64,000 nt of DNA from Arthrobacter yangruifuii (lineage in GTDB: Bacteria; Actinomycetota; Actinomycetes; Actinomycetales; Micrococcaceae), in NCBI RefSeq assembly GCF_009192775.1, contig NZ_VTFX01000001.1, forward strand, positions 310,001 to 374,000, read 5' to 3'. A model generated the notes under the pieces. The model was not told the origin of the DNA. It saw only the letters and a list, made by a program, of their open reading frames with translations, and did not search any database. This document shows, piece by piece, positions 4,238 to 39,756 of the stretch; position 1 is the first letter of the stretch; every line of letters starts with the position of its first letter. The position numbers were made by a program, and so were the translations under genes.

Positions 4238-4314
4238 TGGTTGCGGGGGCAAGATTTGAACTTGCGACCTCTGGGTTATGAGCCCAGCGAGCTACCGAAC
4301 TGCTCCACCCCGCG
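4238..4314 (-). tRNA. Initiator tRNA-fMet (anticodon CAT)
   Basis: The minus strand folds into a 77-nt cloverleaf that includes an encoded CCA (4238-4240). The acceptor arms CGCGGGG and CCCCGCA leave a C1-A72 mismatch, and the anticodon stem is GCTGGGCTCATAACCCAG with three G-C pairs. Both are hallmarks of bacterial initiator tRNA. The T-loop GTTCAAATC is present. A strong terminator follows. Confidence 0.95.
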
Positions 4315-17578: not shown

Positions 17579-18799
17579 ATGGACGTAGGACACTTGCCGG
17601 CCAGTGAGTTCGACTCGGCCGGACTCGAGCAATCCCTGATGGGTGCTCCGGAGCTGAACCCTGTCCCGGACATGGTTCAGCTCCTCACCATCGACGGGGA
17701 GCTGCGCCAGGACGGGACCTACAGCAGCTACGTCCAGGATTTGACCCCCGAGGAACTCCGCGGGTTCTACCGGGACATGTTCCTGGTCCGCCGGTTCGAT
17801 GAAGAGGCCACTGCGCTCCAGCGGCAGGGTGAACTCGTCATGTGGGTTCCGCTCACCGGCCAGGAAGGCGCACAGATCGGTTCCGGCCGGGCACTGCTGC
17901 CGCAGGACTATGTTTTCCCCACTTACCGCGAGCACGGTGTCGCCTACACGCGCGGGCTGGAACTTGCCCAGCTGCTTCGGCGCTTCCGCGGCATTTCCCA
18001 TGGTGGGTGGGATCCCCGGGAGGTGAATTTCCATCTCTACACGCTCGTGCTGGCTGCCCAGGTGCCGCACGCCGTCGGCTACGCCATGGGGATGGCACGT
18101 GACCGGCTGGTGGATCCCAAACTGCCCGAAGCCGCCACGGTGGCCTACTTCGGCGACGGCGCCAGCTCCGAAGGCGACGTGCACGAGGGTATGGTTTTTG
18201 CCGCGTCCTACAACGCTCCGGTGGTCTTCTTCTGCCAGAACAACCACTGGGCCATCTCCGTTCCTACCGAAGTCCAGTCGCGGATTCCCCTGGCCAACAG
18301 GGCCCAGGGCTACGGCTTCCCCGGTGTGCGGGTGGATGGCAACGACGTTCTGGCCGTCCATGCGGTGACGCGCTGGGCCCTGGAACGGGCGCGTTCCGGC
18401 GCCGGTCCCGTGCTGATCGAGGCTTTCACCTACCGGATGAGTGCCCATACGACGGCGGACGATCCCACTAAGTACCGTCTCAGCGCGGACGAGGAAGCGT
18501 GGCTGGACCGGGACCCGATGCTTCGGATGGAAAAGTACCTGCGCCGCCAGGGCCTGGCCGATGACGCGTTCTTCGAGGAACTCCGCGAGGAAGGCCGCAG
18601 CATGGCGGTCCGGCTGCGGGAAAACGTCCAGCAGATGGAGGCGCCGGGTTTTGCGGATGCTTTCACCGATGTGTACGCCGAAGCGCACCCGCTGATCCGT
18701 GAGGAACTGGATGCCCACCGCCGGTACGAGGCAGGCTTCGCCGACGCCGAACCTGCCGCCGGCACCGCCACACCCACCTCCCGGGAGCACAACGCATGA
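17579..18799 (+). CDS. bkdA: 2-oxoacid dehydrogenase E1 alpha subunit (branched-chain/pyruvate type)
   Basis: This 406-residue thiamine-diphosphate enzyme subunit decarboxylates a 2-oxoacid. The TPP motif is GDGASSEGDVHEGMVFAA, with NNHWAIS downstream. TYREHGVAYTRG and RMSAHTTADDPTKYR are typical of BkdA/PdhA heterodimer enzymes. The ATG at 17579 is preceded by GAGGAG. The stop overlaps the E1-beta start by 4 bp. Actinobacteria usually run pyruvate through AceE, so this type is likely for branched-chain 2-oxoacids, which fits the aminotransferases on both sides (inference). Confidence 0.88.
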   Translation: MDVGHLPASEFDSAGLEQSLMGAPELNPVPDMVQLLTIDGELRQDGTYSSYVQDLTPEELRGFYRDMFLVRRFDEEATALQRQGELVMWVPLTGQEGAQIGSGRALLPQDYVFPTYREHGVAYTRGLELAQLLRRFRGISHGGWDPREVNFHLYTLVLAAQVPHAVGYAMGMARDRLVDPKLPEAATVAYFGDGASSEGDVHEGMVFAASYNAPVVFFCQNNHWAISVPTEVQSRIPLANRAQGYGFPGVRVDGNDVLAVHAVTRWALERARSGAGPVLIEAFTYRMSAHTTADDPTKYRLSADEEAWLDRDPMLRMEKYLRRQGLADDAFFEELREEGRSMAVRLRENVQQMEAPGFADAFTDVYAEAHPLIREELDAHRRYEAGFADAEPAAGTATPTSREHNA

Positions 18800-19773
18800 G
18801 CACCACCATGACCATGGCCAAGGCCATCAACGCCGGTCTGCGCGCCGCCCTGGAATCACACCCGAATTCGCTGCTGATGGGCGAGGACATCGGTTCCCTC
18901 GGCGGCGTCTACCGGGTCACCGAAGGCCTGAAGGCGGACTTCGGTGCCGACCGCGTGATGGACACTCCGCTGGCGGAATCCGGAATCATCGGCACCGCCA
19001 TCGGCCTGGCCCTGCGCGGCTACCTGCCCGTGTGCGAAATCCAGTTCGACGGGTTTGTCTTCCCGGGCTTCAACCAAATCACCACGCAGCTGGCCAAAAT
19101 GCACTCCCGCAGCGAGGGTGCGCTCAGCGCACCCGTGGTCATCAGGATTCCCTACGGCGGCGGAATCGGCTCTATTGAGCATCATTCGGAATCCCCGGAA
19201 GCGCTCTTTGCCCACACCGCCGGATTGCGCATCATCACGCCGTCGAACCCCCAGGACGCGTACTGGATGATCCAGCAGGCCGTTGACTGCAAGGACCCGG
19301 TCATCGTCTTCGAGCCCAAGCGCCGCTACTGGCTCAAGGGCGACGTCGACACCACCGCGCCCACGTCGGATCCGTTCTCCGCACACATTGTCCGCGAAGG
19401 AACCGATGCCACCATCGTGGCGTACGGGCCGCTGGTACCCGTCGCCCTGGCCGCTGCCGCGGCAGCGGAGGAAGACGGACGGTCCGTGGAAGTGGTGGAC
19501 CTGCGCTCCATTTCCCCCATCGACTTCGACACCGTGACCGAGTCCGTCCGCAAAACCGGACGGCTGATCGTCACCCACGAAGCACCGACCTTCGGCGGGA
19601 TCGGCGGGGAAATCGCCGCGCGCGTCGCAGAGCGGGCCTTCCTGTCCCTCGAAGCACCGGTGCTGCGCGTGGGCGGGTTCCACATGCCGTACCCCGTGGC
19701 GAAGGTCGAGGAGCACTACCTGCCGGACATCGACCGCCTGCTCGAAGCGCTGGACCGCTCCTTCGCCTACTGA
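18796..19773 (+). CDS. bkdB: 2-oxoacid dehydrogenase E1 beta subunit
   Basis: This 325-residue transketolase-like subunit completes the E1 heterotetramer. Motifs are [50 protein letters not shown] and the C-terminal [12 protein letters not shown]. Its ATG overlaps the E1-alpha stop (ATGA), so translation is coupled for 1:1 synthesis. Length is standard. Confidence 0.9.
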
Positions 19774-19823
19774 CGAGCCTGCCTGCCCGCCAACCAACCG
19801 CCGAAAACCAAGAACGAGTAACC

Positions 19824-21227
19824 ATGACTGAAAAGACATTCCGCCTGCCGGACGTGGGCGAAGGCCTGACCGAAGCAGACATCGTGCAGTGGAAGGTCGC
19901 GCCCGGAGACACGGTGGCGGTCAATGACGTGATCGTGGAAATCGAGACCGCCAAGTCCCTCGTGGAGCTGCCCTCACCGTACGCCGGCACGGTGTCCTCC
20001 CTCATGGTCGCGGAAGGTGACACGGTCGACGTCGGCACGCCCATCATTAGCGTGACGGTCGGCAGCGCTGCCGGATCAACGACGCCGGAGGAAACCCCCG
20101 CACCAGCCTCCCCGGCGGCGGCACCTGTTTCGGCACCGTCCGCGGCTGCGGGGGACGCTCCCCGGGCCTCGCTCACGGGCACCGGGCCCAAGCCCGACGC
20201 CGTCCACCGCCGTCCCCGCCGTTCCGCCCCGTCCGGGACGCCGGCGTCGTCTGCAGCCCAGGCCCCGGAAGCCTCTGTCCCGGCGCCGTCCGGCAAGCCG
20301 GCACCGTCAGGAACCGCCGCAGTGCAGGACCGGGCCACCCGGCTGATCCAGCGCGTGTTGGCCAAGCCGCCCGTACGCAAGGCGGCAAAGGACCTGGGCA
20401 TCAACCTGGAGGATGTCACCGCCACGGGCGCCAGCGGCGAGGTCACCAAACAGGACCTGATGAGCTACCAGGCTCAGCGTGAGTCAGAGCGCGGGTCGGC
20501 CGGCGGATTCCGGTTCCCCGGCTCCGCAGCGGACGACTCCCGCATTGAACGCATCCCCGTCAAGGGAGTTCGGCGCGCCACGGCAAACGCCATGGTTGAA
20601 AGCGCCTTCAGTGCACCCCACGTCAGCATCTTCGTGGATGTGGATGCCTCCCGCACCATGGAGTTCGTCAAGCGGCTCAAGGCATCGAAGGATTACGAGG
20701 GCATCCGGGTCTCTCCGCTGCTGATCCTCGCGAAGGCGGTCATCTGGGCCGCCGCCCGCAACCCGTCCGTGAACGCCACCTGGGCCGGCGACGAGATCCT
20801 GGTCAAGCACTTCATGAACCTCGGTATCGCAGCAGCTACCCCGCGTGGGCTGATGGTGCCCAACATCAAGGAGGCGCAGGATCTTTCGCTGAAGGAACTC
20901 GCTGTCGCCCTCAACACCCTGGCGGCCACTGCACGGGAAGGCAGGACGCAGCCTGCCGATATGCGCGGCGGCACCCTGACCGTCACCAACATCGGATCGC
21001 TGGGCATCGACACCGGCACCCCGATCATCAACCCCGGTGAAGTCGCCATTGTGGCGTTCGGAACCATCAAGCAGAAGCCCTGGGTGGTGGACGGCGAGGT
21101 GGTGCCGCGCTGGATCACGACCCTTGGCGGCTCCTTCGACCACCGCGTGGTCGACGGCGATCTGTCGGCCCGCTTCATGGCCGACGTTGCCGCGATTCTG
21201 GAGGAACCGGCGCTGCTGCTGGGCTGA
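19824..21227 (+). CDS. bkdC: 2-oxoacid dehydrogenase E2 (lipoamide acyltransferase)
   Basis: This 467-residue core subunit has one lipoyl domain (residues 1-80, lipoyl Lys44 in [11 protein letters not shown]), an Ala/Pro-rich linker (90-165) and a peripheral-subunit-binding domain (about 170-213, [19 protein letters not shown]). The catalytic domain carries [15 protein letters not shown] near the end. It transfers the acyl group to CoA. No E3 (dihydrolipoamide dehydrogenase) is encoded nearby, so a shared one must be used. It lies 50 bp after E1-beta. Confidence 0.92.
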
Positions 21228-21234
21228 GGAACGT

Positions 21235-22539
21235 TCAGCCCACCTTGACGGCGTCGACGGCGGCTCTCAGGATCGGTGCGAGGCGGCGGACACCTTCGGC
21301 AATGTCCTCGGCGGAGACAGCACTGAAGGCCAGCCGCAGCTTGTTGGAGGATCCCTCGCCCGGCCTGAAGGCCGCGCCGGGGATGAAGACCGTTCCGGCC
21401 TCGATGGCCTTGTACAGCAGCGGGTAGGTGTCCACGCCCTCGGGCAGCGTCACCCAGATGAAGAACCCGCCCTCCGGACGGGTCCACGTGACACCCTCGG
21501 GCATCTGGTCCGCCAGGGCAGCCAGCATCGCGGAGCACCGTCCGGCGTAGAGGGTGCGTGAACTGCGTACGTGGCCCATCCAGTCGTAGTCCCTCAGGTA
21601 CGCCGAAACCAGCATCTGGGTCAGGGGCGAGGGGCAGAGGACAACCGCCTCGCAGGCAAGGTAAAAACGCCGGTAGAGGTGGCGGGGGATCAGCGCCCAG
21701 CCGAGCCGGACCCCGGGGGCGAAAATCTTGGAGAACGAGCCCAGATACAGCACGTCCTGGGGGTTTCCGGCGCGCATGGGAGCCAGCGGTTCGCCGTCGA
21801 ACCGGAGGAGGCCGTAGGGGTTGTCCTCGAGGACCAGGATGTTGTTCCGCCGGCAAATTTCCACGACTGCCCGTCTGCGGTCCGCGGTGAGGGTGACCCC
21901 GCTGGGGTTGTTGAAACTGGGGATGGTGTAGAGCAACTTGATGGTTTTGCCCTCGGCACGCAGCTGGCGGATCCGCTCCTCCAGAGCCTCCGGAATGAGG
22001 CCGTCCCCATCCATGGGCACGGTGCGCACATCAACCTCATAGGCTTCAAAGGCATTCAGCGCGCCCACATAGGTGGGATCCTCGCAGAGGATGACGTCCC
22101 CGGGGTTGCAGAAAACCTTGGCTGCCACGTCCTGCGCCGACTGCGAGCCCGTGGTAATGACAATGTCCGCGGGATCGGCGTCGAGGATTCCCTCCGCCGC
22201 CATCACCTCGCAGGCCTGCCGGCGCAGCTCATCCATGCCCTGTCCGCCGCCGTACTGCAGGGCTTCCAACCCATGCTCGGCGAGGATCCGCTGCGCCGTC
22301 CGGCCAAGCTCTTCCAGGGGAAGGGAACGGAGGTAGGGGCTGCCGCCCGCAAGGGAAATCAGGCCGGGTTGGACAGAAATGTCAAAGACGTCCCGCACCG
22401 CCGACTGCTTGATGTGGAAGGCGCGGTTGGAGAACAGCACCTCATGCCGGTGTGAACCGGCGGCACGCTCCAGGGCGGCCATGGTGTCAACGGGCAGTTC
22501 TACGGCATCGGAGAATTCCTCGCGGGTCATGCCACCCAT
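21235..22539 (-). CDS. PLP-dependent aminotransferase, MocR-domain/2-aminoadipate type
   Basis: This 434-residue class I/II aminotransferase is related to LysN/ARO8 and the catalytic half of MocR regulators, but has no HTH domain. Motifs are ISLAGGSPYLRSLP, QYGGGQGMDELR, PSFNNPSGVTL and the PLP lysine in LYLGSFSKIFAPGVRLGW. Such enzymes use broad substrates, including branched-chain, aromatic and 2-aminoadipate. It is convergent with the E2 gene, 7 bp apart. A second possible ATG lies three codons in. Confidence 0.85.
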   Translation of the reverse strand: MGGMTREEFSDAVELPVDTMAALERAAGSHRHEVLFSNRAFHIKQSAVRDVFDISVQPGLISLAGGSPYLRSLPLEELGRTAQRILAEHGLEALQYGGGQGMDELRRQACEVMAAEGILDADPADIVITTGSQSAQDVAAKVFCNPGDVILCEDPTYVGALNAFEAYEVDVRTVPMDGDGLIPEALEERIRQLRAEGKTIKLLYTIPSFNNPSGVTLTADRRRAVVEICRRNNILVLEDNPYGLLRFDGEPLAPMRAGNPQDVLYLGSFSKIFAPGVRLGWALIPRHLYRRFYLACEAVVLCPSPLTQMLVSAYLRDYDWMGHVRSSRTLYAGRCSAMLAALADQMPEGVTWTRPEGGFFIWVTLPEGVDTYPLLYKAIEAGTVFIPGAAFRPGEGSSNKLRLAFSAVSAEDIAEGVRRLAPILRAAVDAVKVG

Positions 22540-22605: not shown

Positions 22606-23574
22606 CTAAATCCAGCCCGCCTTATGGGCCTTGATTCCGGCCTGGAACCGGCTGTCCGCACCCAGCTCCTCCAGCATCCAGGCGATGTGTCGCCGGCACG
22701 TGCGCACACTGATGCCCAGTCGGCGGGCAATGGCCTCGTCGGAATGCCCGGCTGCCAGCGCCGTCAGCACCGCCCGCTGCGTGCTGGTGAGGTCTTCCCT
22801 GCCCGGATTGTCGGTCAGGAACGGCTCCGCCAGGCCCCATGCAAACTCGAAGAGCAGGCCGAAAATCCGGATCAGGTTGGGATCCCGTACTACCAGCCCG
22901 GCAACATCGCCGGGATGCAGGTCACGGGCCACCACCGCCACTTTCTCATCGAAAATGAGGGTCCGCAGGGGCACGTACGGAAGGGTGCGGAACTGTCCTC
23001 CGGCAGCGGTAATGGTCTCCACCGCCTTGCGCGTGGGTACGTGGTCCCGCGTGCTCGCGTGGTAGAGCGTCTGCCGGCGTACACCGCTGCGCAGGAGGTC
23101 CAGGTCCTTCTCCACGCTTTCCTCATGGATGTCGGCATTGGCGCCCGGCCCCGGGCGGGCAATCAGTACGCGGTCGGTGGCGCTGCGGCCGTACTCGATC
23201 AGCACCCGCTGCACTTTTTCCTTATCTTCGACCACTTCCACGGTCGGATCGGCGGCGAGCCGTTTGCGTGCTTCAACGTAGGCCGGCGTCAAGGCGCTCA
23301 TCTCCCGGCGGCGGGCATTGATCCTGCCGCGCAGTTCCAGCAGCGTCCGTTCATCCGGGTCAACCAGCTCCGCGAGGGCCACTTCCGGGGAAACAGCAAT
23401 GTAGCTGGGGCAATCGGAGGCCTGCTGCAGCAGGAGGCAGCGGGCCGTCAGTTCGCTGATGGCGGTGTCGACCATCCGGCTGGTGTACCCCAGTGCTTCG
23501 GAGGCCTCCGCTGCCGTCCATCCCGGTCGGGTGACGGCAAAGCGGTAGACGTCGAGCGAAACCTGAGACAGCAC
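22606..23574 (-). CDS. LuxR-type HTH regulator with TrmB-like N-terminal domain
   Basis: This 322-residue regulator has a winged-helix front (residues about 1-50: RPGWTAAEASEALGYTSRM), a central region that resembles the phospholipase-D-like sensor half of TrmB regulators, and a C-terminal LuxR HTH (SDEAIARRLGISVRTCRRHI). It lacks a receiver domain. The start is GTG 23574, because AAGAAAGGA lies 7 bases upstream; in-frame codons upstream lack a site. It is divergent from the SpaB_C/peptide genes. Regulators of this build often accompany actinobacterial peptide clusters (my recollection, not testable here), so it probably controls them. Confidence 0.8.
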   Translation of the reverse strand: MLSQVSLDVYRFAVTRPGWTAAEASEALGYTSRMVDTAISELTARCLLLQQASDCPSYIAVSPEVALAELVDPDERTLLELRGRINARRREMSALTPAYVEARKRLAADPTVEVVEDKEKVQRVLIEYGRSATDRVLIARPGPGANADIHEESVEKDLDLLRSGVRRQTLYHASTRDHVPTRKAVETITAAGGQFRTLPYVPLRTLIFDEKVAVVARDLHPGDVAGLVVRDPNLIRIFGLLFEFAWGLAEPFLTDNPGREDLTSTQRAVLTALAAGHSDEAIARRLGISVRTCRRHIAWMLEELGADSRFQAGIKAHKAGWI

Positions 23575-23660
23575 GGCGAATCCTTTCTTCAAAGCATTGG
23601 CTGGAGCCCCCCCAGCTACCCTACCCAGCGCCGACGGATAACGGGCTGGGTGTGACGAAA

Positions 23661-23680
23661 GTGTTTTATGACGGCAACAC
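23661..23680. promoter_or_regulatory. Inverted repeat in the divergent regulator/peptide region
   Basis: GTGTT (23661-23665) and AACAC (23676-23680) form short inverted arms 10 bp apart in the 358-bp gap between the LuxR gene and the seven-codon ORF. This is a possible regulator site; the match is short. Confidence 0.3.
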
Positions 23681-23691
23681 ACTTTGAAATG

Positions 23692-23818
23692 CCGGACATG
23701 GCCGGTTAATGACATGGGTGCCCCCGTCATCCACTCGTCCCCAAAAGCCTGCCCCAAGGCCTGAGCCTACGCGCTGCGGCCCGGGAGCGGGGACTCTCCG
23801 GGTCCACATCCGGACATG
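23692..23818. promoter_or_regulatory. Two CCGGACATG repeats in the divergent region
   Basis: CCGGACATG occurs at 23692-23700 and again at 23810-23818, about 118 bp apart in direct orientation. The first lies in a near-palindrome (GCCGGACATGGCCGG). They may be binding sites for the adjacent LuxR/TrmB regulator. Apart from these and the short inverted repeat, I see no gene between 23575 and 23932. Confidence 0.35.
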
Positions 23819-23932
23819 TCAGGAACCGGGCAGCGGAGGGTCTTTACAGCCCTTGCAACGGCGGGGGAAGCTTTCGGAGTCAATCAAGGCGCCGGCTGAG
23901 CAACAGCCTGAGACCCAAGGGGGATAGCGATT

Positions 23933-23956
23933 ATGAAGAGCTGGGACTGGTTCTAA
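23933..23956 (+). CDS. Seven-residue peptide MKSWDWF (putative minimal precursor or leader peptide)
   Basis: The ORF is ATG, six codons and TAA. It encodes Met-Lys-Ser-Trp-Asp-Trp-Phe. AAGGGGG at 23917-23923 lies 9 bases upstream, one of the best Shine-Dalgarno matches in the window and the same sequence as before the 62-residue gene. It precedes a SpaB_C-like modification enzyme by 88 bp. Five-residue RiPP precursor genes are known (biarylitide MRYYH), so this size is possible. It could instead be a Trp-sensing leader peptide controlling the downstream gene. Assignment rests on the start site, composition and position only. Confidence 0.5.
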   Translation: MKSWDWF

Positions 23957-24044
23957 CCTAAGGCCCGCACAGGGCAATCACCCGAAAAACAAGAACAAGA
24001 CAGGCCGCCAGCGGCGGTAACCGCACCCCGAGGGGAAGACACAT

Positions 24045-25004
24045 ATGAGCCAGCTAGCTGCTGTTCGACCAGCCTCACGGACGCAACCCGGCACTCACTG
24101 GTGGTCGCTCTCCATCCATACCGGGGGCTTTGATGTAGCGGACGGCGTCATCGGAGAACTGGTTACCCCGCTGGCAGCCCAGGCCCAGCTTCTGGGGGCG
24201 CAGCGGTGGTACTTCACCCGGTGCGCGGAACCGGCCCACGCACACGTCAAACTCCGGGTACTCGCGGGCATGAGCACGCTGGACCGGCTGCAGTCATTGT
24301 TCGTCGCGTTGCAGGAACAGTCCAGCGGCGTCATCGGGCACCTTGAAACGAGCCAGCAGTTCAGCGAGCCGGCCACGGACCGGCTCAGCCCCGGGGGCAG
24401 CGAGCCGCAGGACCCCCGTATTGAAGCGGACCTCGCCAAATACGGCGGCGTGGAGGGCCTCTCCCTCGCCGAAGAGGTCTTTGAACTCTCCTCTGACCTG
24501 GCCAGCTGGGCCACTGCGCGCTTTCCCAAGGTCCAGAACCGCTGGGCGCTCGGTTCGCTGCTGCTCTTTGATGCGGCCCGGAGCATGATGAAGGGTCCCC
24601 GGGCATCAGCCTGGCCGGACCGCCGCCGTCTGTCCTGGGACTATTACTGGGACAGCCACCTGCGCAGCTGCACCGCCGGGTTCGGCCCGCGGGCAGCCGG
24701 GGTGCGCCAGGCCATGACGGTCCAGATCGGGGCAAAGGTCATGCCTACCCACCGGCTTATGGCGGCGACGGCGGCCGAATCCGCCGTCGAAAACTGGCGC
24801 CGCCGCTGGTTCCGCGGCATCGACACGTATCTTTACCGGGCGGATAAGGCACGGCTGAGTCGAAGCGCCCAGCACCTCACGGTGTACCAGGCGCATATGC
24901 TTTTGAACCGCCTTGGCCTAAGTCTGCGGGAAGAAGCCGCCATGGGACTGTACGCACGGACCTGGAGTCCGGAGCGCGAGTCGGTTCTGCTTGATAAGCG
25001 CTGA
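24045..25004 (+). CDS. Stand-alone SpaB_C/thiopeptide-type bacteriocin biosynthesis protein
   Basis: This 319-residue protein resembles the C-terminal elimination domain of class I lanthipeptide dehydratases and the free-standing pyridine synthases of thiopeptide pathways. The N-terminal HWWSLSIHT (residues 18-26) and WYFTRCAEPAHAHVKLRV (55-72) match the family's W-x-S-x-x-I-H and WFxRY-x-x-P-x-x-H-L-R-L-R signatures. The family's paired Arg reads K-L-R here, so one Arg is replaced by Lys. The glutamylating LanB_N half is absent here and in the neighbourhood. ATG 24045 has GAGGGGAAG upstream. It probably acts on a small peptide, but the reaction is unknown. Confidence 0.72.
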   Translation: MSQLAAVRPASRTQPGTHWWSLSIHTGGFDVADGVIGELVTPLAAQAQLLGAQRWYFTRCAEPAHAHVKLRVLAGMSTLDRLQSLFVALQEQSSGVIGHLETSQQFSEPATDRLSPGGSEPQDPRIEADLAKYGGVEGLSLAEEVFELSSDLASWATARFPKVQNRWALGSLLLFDAARSMMKGPRASAWPDRRRLSWDYYWDSHLRSCTAGFGPRAAGVRQAMTVQIGAKVMPTHRLMAATAAESAVENWRRRWFRGIDTYLYRADKARLSRSAQHLTVYQAHMLLNRLGLSLREEAAMGLYARTWSPERESVLLDKR

Positions 25005-25034
25005 CGGCGCAGAAATGGGAAGGGGGTCCATCCG

Positions 25035-25223
25035 GTGGCCGAGCATGAAGAAGTAGTGGTGGGGGACTCCCAGGAACTCGGGACGGTCCTTGGATGTTCT
25101 GACGACGTCCTTGATGACCTGAAGAACAGCGGGGTTCTCGCATCCCACGGAGAAGCTTGGAATGTGGGTCCGGCGCGCGAATACCTGAGGGACGCGGCCT
25201 GGGCGGACGAGGTGTGGTTCTAG
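25035..25223 (+). CDS. 62-residue acidic peptide ending in Trp-Phe
   Basis: GTG 25035 is preceded by GGAAGGGGG (25018-25026) at 8-base spacing. The product is acidic, with one Cys (LGCSDDVLDDL) and four Trp/Phe near its end: AAWADEVWF. The C-terminal W-F recalls MKSWDWF encoded upstream, which suggests one enzyme could recognise both. Alternatively, TVLGCSDDVLDDLKNSGVLA resembles the last helices of CaiB/BaiF CoA-transferases, so it could be a remnant of such a gene. It lies 30 bp after the SpaB_C-like gene and before a strong hairpin, so it is part of the same transcript. No confident family. Confidence 0.5.
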   Translation: MAEHEEVVVGDSQELGTVLGCSDDVLDDLKNSGVLASHGEAWNVGPAREYLRDAAWADEVWF

Positions 25224-25276
25224 GCGGTTTCCCGCGCAGAACTCGCCGAGCCAGCCCGCACAGAGTTACCAGCGCA

Positions 25277-25312
25277 GAAGAGGGACGGACCGATGACGGT
25301 CCGTCCCTCTTC
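25277..25312. terminator. Long hairpin ending the peptide cluster
   Basis: A 15-bp perfect stem (25277-25291 with 25298-25312) with a 6-base loop lies between the 62-residue gene and the convergent FMN reductase. It lacks a T run but is well placed to end both transcripts. Confidence 0.75.
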
Positions 25313-25329
25313 TGTGTGTCTGCGGCAGC

Positions 25330-39284: not shown

Positions 39285-39563
39285 TGGAATCTTTCTTATA
39301 GGCACCCGCCGGCAGCTCATCCGCCGTCCATCACCTATGCCGCCCCAAGAGGCAGCCCCGGGATGTTGGCGCTGCCGCCGACATTTCAGTTTGGAAGCCC
39401 CTGAGAGCCCCCGTCAAATCAGCCGGTGTGTGACGTTTCGGGTCACACGGTCCGTTCCGGCGCGGCACCGGCGTCCGCGCCCGGGCGTGTCAGGAGGTTG
39501 AGGCGGTACCGGGGGCAGGCTAAAGTTGGCTGTGTCACAACTGCATATATGCCTATATCAGCC

Positions 39564-39756
39564 GTGGCGGGAGAGTCCCGCCGGATGCGCATCAGCATCG
39601 GCGGGCGCCGTAGGAGCAAACCCTCCCCGGGAATCTCTCAGGCCCCCGTACCGCCACAGTGAGGCAACTCTGGAAAGCAGTTCCGGGCACGGCCCGGAAC
39701 TCACCGACGGTGCAAGCGGAAGTACACCCGCGGAATCTCTCAGGTCCAATACAGAG
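39564..39756 (+). ncRNA. Tandem glycine riboswitch (gcvT element)
   Basis: There are two adjacent aptamers. The first (39564-39657) is closed by GTGGCGG/CCGCCAC and contains GGAGCAAACC and GGGAATCTCTCAGG. The second (39668-39756) is closed by CTCTG/CAGAG and contains ACGGTGCAAGC and GGAATCTCTCAGG. These are the conserved cores of the glycine riboswitch. It ends 58 bp before gcvP and should activate the whole operon when glycine binds. AT-rich TATATG/TATATC sequences just upstream (39546-39559) may belong to the promoter. Confidence 0.96.

Follow-up and report, generated by a model that had tools for sequence, protein, structure and literature searches.

What does a stand-alone SpaB_C protein do beside an open reading frame (ORF) of only seven codons? 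Free-standing SpaB_C proteins have precedents in thiopeptide and lanthipeptide routes, and the locus that raises this question lies in a stretch of 64,000 nucleotides (nt) of Arthrobacter yangruifuii (assembly GCF_009192775.1, contig NZ_VTFX01000001.1, positions 310,001 to 374,000), hereafter the window. On balance, sequence comparisons suggest a reduced locus of the type that makes ribosomally synthesized and post-translationally modified peptides (RiPPs), in which a divergent LuxR regulator would stand beside a short operon of a Trp-x-Trp precursor and the stand-alone SpaB_C protein, in most cases with a small helper protein; we call this set of genes the cassette. Comparison with relatives shows its conservation and synteny, the peptide motif, the fold, the negative result for LanB_N in the genus and the kinship with split-LanB clusters of the thiocillin type. 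Everything beyond a conserved partnership of SpaB_C and peptide we infer; of the compact RiPP-like or signalling locus proposed in an earlier note on this DNA, the SpaB_C protein and the tiny peptide are real, and modification and signalling belong to that inferred part.

The tryptophan-rich peptide

Cassette copies of SpaB_C were defined solely via their neighbours, a divergent LuxR gene and/or the small protein just downstream, and all upstream-peptide counts omit SpaB_C copies with fewer than 260 nt upstream. Of the 66 cassette copies, 64 have a W[D/E/G]W ORF, as against 0 of the 66 others, a contrast that rejects a chance ORF and upholds the seven-codon ORF with its Shine-Dalgarno site that the earlier note had picked out. 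In the exceptions, MEATFSQILRSGGIYDWPTVA (Y-D-W, locus L209) and MTASAARRIWAWPESWPILGRK (W-A-W, locus L212) occupy the peptide position. In a first count over 126 unique upstream regions, 62 held a W[D/E/G]W ORF, placed 76-148 nt before SpaB_C and equipped with a Shine-Dalgarno-like site; since many of the sampled genomes are close kin, these counts are not independent events.

Short forms of the peptide read MKSWDWF, MTKVWDWI, MASKVWDWI, MKKATAPVSIKSWEWF, MEKATGSTVSIKSWEWF and MNRIRISVAGSKSWEWF. The long form (34 of the 62 peptides), found in genera g5, g8, g26 and g32, comprises 44-93 residues with a basic start followed by a hydrophobic stretch, and can carry several cores: two SWDWPK units in L053, three NWEWPK units in L121, and four and six VWDWPQQ units in L113 and L116, respectively, with L160 having a C-terminal AAWDW. 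Behind the hydrophobic stretch, 31 of the 34 long peptides match a loose AxA-type pattern, by a crude test rather than a signal-peptide program. A toxin-antitoxin pair was rejected, the repeated cores and AxA-like sites being a poor fit to it. In a sample of the family, a profile of the long precursor gave matches at E <=0.01 in 36 of 295 genomes; a handful of low-scoring ones are probably due to chance, and no SpaB_C was found in the stretches around those of G276 and G294 (L215, L216).

Upon examining 91 cores, we observe WDW in 75, WEW in 15 and WGW in one, with the first Trp preceded by Ser (58), Val (18), Asn (6), Ala (6) or Ile (3). The precursor is not rich in Ser or Cys, and no position within or beside the core is an invariant Ser, Thr or Cys. 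The suspicion of a chemistry other than dehydration, raised in the earlier note, agrees with this lack of an invariant dehydratable residue, even with Ser so frequent before the first Trp; because only 17 of the 91 cores have no Ser, Thr or Cys within three residues, the argument rests on those lineages. The codons of the peptide vary synonymously (GAC/GAT, GAA/GAG, AGC/AGT and all four Pro codons) while the residue pattern is fixed.

The SpaB_C protein and its missing partners

The profile search proposed in the earlier note identifies the protein as SpaB_C (PF14028, 67.2 bits against a cut-off of 24.4), whereas the thiopeptide profile TIGR03891, at 44.7 bits, stays below its cut-off of 48.45. 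Against the sequences of the PDB, profile A1 retrieved just MibB at E 0.15 and an unrelated oxidase, and profile A4 a designed protein as its sole match, so that a fold search was needed; it indicated the LanB elimination / pyridine synthase fold, that is, a peptide-tailoring enzyme fold. The LanB-type His (H284), mapped by sequence alignment only, is kept in 44 of 46 cassette copies. SpaB_C relatives occur in all 29 genus genomes, with 1-7 matches per genome, and profile matches were found in 64 of the 295 family-sample genomes, split-LanB proteins counted in; in 7 of 7 cassette genomes tested from other genera, the single PF14028 protein is that of the cassette. In total 119 SpaB_C stretches were collected, of which 11 failed the length/frame filter and 108 passed, 105 of them unique; alignment A4 holds 104 unique sequences plus the window protein, the frame-disrupted L058 having been removed by hand. 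The SpaB_C genes of L054, L058, L061, L081 and L057 are broken by frameshifts or a stop codon, through decay or sequencing error.

No LanB_N partner was detected, as the earlier note had remarked: PF04738 matched in 0 of the 29 genus genomes, with 36 of 148 class genomes matching as a positive control. The cassette differs from the glutamate-elimination domains of NisB and MibB, having no glutamylation domain and no conserved Arg in the R-x-R motif, and from the thiopeptide pyridine synthases TbtD, PbtD and TsrL, both in its TIGR03891 score and in precursors without an invariant Ser or Cys. A canonical RiPP route, with the glutamylating or azole-forming partner needed for a lanthipeptide or thiopeptide encoded at a remote site, would agree with the PF14028 and fold membership, the mostly retained His and the Ser before the first Trp in 58 cores. 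Given the LanB_N result (from which a divergent LanB_N could be missed), the lack of an invariant Ser, Thr or Cys and the thiopeptide score below cut-off, we regard it as the least probable of the explanations weighed here.

Among RiPPs with minute precursors, the biarylitides have an extremely short precursor gene, of five residues in 18 bp (PMC13417212). The cassette is alike in its tiny, easily overlooked precursor gene, here of seven residues, but differs in that a P450 makes the biarylitide crosslinks whereas the cassette neighbour is SpaB_C. No P450 was present among nine scanned downstream ORFs (four loci; 23 listed), a genome-wide search not having been made.

Nucleic-acid elements around the peptide gene

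The GGGAAGCTTTCGGAGTCAA core upstream of the tiny ORF was found in 28 of 28 short-peptide loci and was not seen in the 34 long-peptide loci, with 300 nt covered per locus. The small 5' hairpin folds at -7.2 kcal/mol (alifold) in short-peptide loci, in the forms GGCTG/CAGCC and GGCCG/CGGCC, and the CCGCCAGCGGCGGTAACC element between peptide and SpaB_C matches a loose pattern in 46 of 62 loci, with no consensus fold across the locus set.

A hairpin before the tiny ORF and a conserved element after it, together with its two Trp codons and its position 76-148 nt ahead of SpaB_C, are what might be expected of a regulatory leader (upstream ORF or attenuator), in which translation of the Trp-rich ORF would control SpaB_C expression and the peptide would have no role. 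We consider this very improbable in view of the relatives' peptides, with their 44-93 residues, signal-like starts and up to six cores, and of the synonymous codon changes under a fixed residue pattern. Furthermore, Rfam at its gathering threshold gave no match in the cassette region or in seven related loci, and at a lax threshold one chance-level match in the cassette region (E 0.75). A promoter scan of the region found none. The closing hairpin described in the earlier note exists but comprises 21 pairs instead of 15; it lacks a T-run and was not picked up by a terminator scan.

Locus layout and regulator

The features of the locus are collected in Table 1. The divergent regulator is of the LuxR type, as the earlier note had stated, with a GerE match above the cut-off; the TrmB part of that assignment did not hold, there being no listed match in the window protein and scores below cut-off in two homologues. 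A LuxR orthologue with at least 62% identity is present in 29 of 29 genus genomes, and the gene is found in divergent orientation in the flank of 48 of the 51 orthologous loci, these 51 corresponding to 48 distinct ones. In 5 of 8 KVWDW[I/L] genomes LuxR is 9-13 kb off by coordinates, with L197 and L198 inspected.

Table 1. Coordinates in the window of the cassette features and of the adjoining aminotransferase gene
Feature	Position	Strand	Detail
Class I/II aminotransferase behind luxR, of uncertain membership	21235-22539	-	Same strand as luxR
LuxR-type regulator, C-terminal GerE helix-turn-helix (HTH)	22606-23574	-	GTG start; PF00196 38.1 bits, cut-off 23.5
Conserved element 5' of tiny ORF, candidate promoter/regulator site	23861-23883	+	Core GGGAAGCTTTCGGAGTCAA
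Small hairpin GGCTG-loop-CAGCC	23894-23908	+	Immediately 5' of the tiny ORF's Shine-Dalgarno site
Seven-codon ORF MKSWDWF, putative W-x-W precursor peptide	23933-23956	+	Followed by a stop codon; Shine-Dalgarno AAGGGGG
Conserved intergenic element CCGCCAGCGGCGGTAACC	24005-24022	+	Peptide/SpaB_C gap
Stand-alone SpaB_C / Lant_dehydr_C protein	24045-25004	+	319 residues; PF14028
Small protein	25035-25223	+	62 residues; GTG start; conserved C-terminal RDAAWAxxxW
Hairpin 3' of last gene, putative operon end	25272-25317	.	21 pairs; -43.2 kcal/mol, z -8.6

This constancy of the regulator bears on the strongest alternative, a pheromone without chemistry, whereby the secreted W-x-W peptide stays unmodified and a catalytically degenerate SpaB_C binds the re-imported peptide and relays its state to LuxR. 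It is favoured by the signal-like starts and the repetition of cores, both reminiscent of processed signal precursors, by the unconserved Arg of the R-x-R motif and by the presence of LuxR nearby in most orthologous loci and in every genus genome. The retained H284, the peptide-tailoring fold of SpaB_C and the Arthrobacter peptides without an export signal point the other way, and we judge it unlikely. The short aromatic pheromones of streptococci, SHP/Rgg and XIP/ComR, likewise set a tiny Trp-rich peptide next to a regulator; the cassette differs from them by its LuxR/GerE regulator, its SpaB_C partner, its signal-like starts and its repeated cores.

The aminotransferase lies behind luxR on the same strand in 46 of 51 orthologous loci and remains with luxR in L197 and L198, where ~9 kb separates luxR from the peptide. 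Like it, the 2-oxoacid dehydrogenase E1/E2 genes (window 17606-21227) are syntenic with the cassette in many loci. Elsewhere in the window, Rfam reports a glycine riboswitch aptamer (39558-39663) and a transfer RNA gene (4241-4314, - strand).

The small downstream protein

The last ORF of the operon, which the earlier note took for a second W-F-ending peptide, is instead a conserved small protein of ~55-64 residues whose fixed part is RDAAWAxxxW (alignment A5, comprising 38 of 44 unique proteins plus the window protein, 39 rows, one of them with Val for the second Ala). A shared W-F ending of both peptides holds in close relatives only, the last residue of the small protein being F, Y, D, E, H, G, A, R or Q across the rows. 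Proteins of genus g8 keep the C-terminal RDAAWA but have a first half quite unlike that of the others. It is present in 51 of 51 orthologous loci tested, in 57 of 295 family-sample genomes and in 2 of 394 class-sample genomes, both from the window's family. An identity as an HTH protein or RiPP recognition element was rejected, with no Pfam or NCBIfam match, no convincing match to PDB sequences and an unreliable structure model (predicted local distance difference test 57.7); for these reasons, and with the divergent first half in g8, we do not call it DNA-binding. The RDAAWAxxxW segment may serve in binding or may itself be a second substrate.

Origin of the cassette and its paralogues

In two other Micrococcaceae genera we find thiocillin-family precursor clusters with a split LanB (L210 in G033, L211 in G050). 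Their precursors match the thiocillin family at 49-53 bits (cut-off 25) and are followed by an M50 peptidase, a LanB_N ORF and a SpaB_C relative, the LanB_N scores being 48 bits in L210 and 30 bits in L211. The genes stand in a single row, as in the cassette, and in L211 both SpaB_C and LuxR are 37% identical to their window counterparts. Unlike the cassette, where none of these was seen, the two clusters have LanB_N, the M50 peptidase and Ser/Thr/Cys-rich thiocillin-type precursors, and their SpaB_C proteins keep H-x-R-x-R intact.

With the G033 and G050 copies as outgroup, the stand-alone SpaB_C copies form one clade (Shimodaira-Hasegawa-like approximate likelihood ratio test, SH-aLRT, 99). 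Copies belonging to the signal-less Arthrobacter peptides form one clade as well (SH-aLRT 86), and peptide-less paralogues, of which 16 of 38 in group 3 were sampled at random for the tree, nest among the peptide-bearing copies (98), next to those of Arthrobacter (82). The likewise signal-less L209 and L212, which retain LuxR (33% and 39% identity) and the aminotransferase, are placed elsewhere on flagged long branches. On the simplest account, which is tentative, LanB_N was lost and a new precursor gained, after which the signal start was lost in Arthrobacter and at least once elsewhere, and paralogues then lost the peptide.

Such paralogues also occur outside the window. One, 65% identical and ~38 kb off (L002, G000:C1:295365-296303), lacks LuxR, the peptide and the small protein; 12 of 29 genus genomes contain a copy with 64-67% identity. 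Four more, with 43-45% identity and no W-x-W peptides (L008 and L009, G000:C1:440254-452057), are preceded by shared non-coding DNA, of TATGGACATTCACATTTTGGCAACACA type in relatives, some of which hold two such copies close together. A hidden peptide upstream of the 45%-identity paralogues was rejected, as the shared upstream DNA falls in different frames. A scan of 55 paralogue loci for small ORFs with W-x-W or AAWA gave scattered matches and no upstream peptide; by eye, the recurrent matches (LWRWLSQ; SSWLWGL) sit within the SpaB_C gene in other frames.

Discussion

We take it as most likely that the aromatic-x-Trp segment is what SpaB_C binds and either alters or at any rate handles. In the mechanism that we propose for a reduced RiPP-type locus, SpaB_C would recognise this segment and alter or chaperone it through a chemistry other than Ser/Thr dehydration. 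Peptides with a signal-like start would leave via the Sec pathway and then be cut into short W-x-W units, while Arthrobacter sensu stricto and, separately, the two divergent cassettes would use precursors of 7-24 residues with no signal sequence. The product may be a signal or bioactive peptide, with the operon governed by LuxR.

Several observations weigh against this reading. With Ser directly ahead of the first Trp in 58 of the 91 cores, Ser chemistry may operate in those lineages. The second Arg of H-x-R-x-R (position 71, mapped by sequence alignment only) is Arg in just 19 of 46 cassette copies, so that SpaB_C could be a binder and not an enzyme. Additionally, a seven-residue precursor has almost no leader, and the peptides of the Arthrobacter clade, L209 and L212 have no signal sequence; the nine scanned downstream ORFs have no protease, exporter or further tailoring enzyme in common. 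The small protein was not found in cassettes L209 and L213, while the L212 contig stops inside SpaB_C. Finally, the outgroup rows, L209 and L212 are long-branched and the L209/L212 join is flagged in the tree, and the split LanB_N scores are low, so that a very divergent LanB_N could escape the search.

A bolder claim, which we advance with reservation, is that of a new RiPP class: a lanthipeptide glutamate-elimination domain, freed from its glutamylating partner, would act on an aromatic-Asp/Glu-Trp motif and yield a LuxR-linked signal peptide, from a precursor that is secreted but in Arthrobacter signal-less and reduced to as few as seven codons.

We found no description of the cassette in the open-access PubMed Central literature, which covers few subscription journals; the SpaB_C fold is known, and its partnership with the peptide and the precursor family appear to be new. 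A SpaB_C protein tightly partnered with a peptide that in several lineages has no core Ser, Thr or Cys points to an unrecognised chemistry or a peptide-binding role. Ranging from precursors with a signal-like start and several cores to one of seven codons, the series offers a natural experiment on how small a precursor can be, and it shows how readily such small genes escape notice. If the peptide signals via LuxR, the cassette would be a testable peptide communication system in soil bacteria of the Arthrobacter type.
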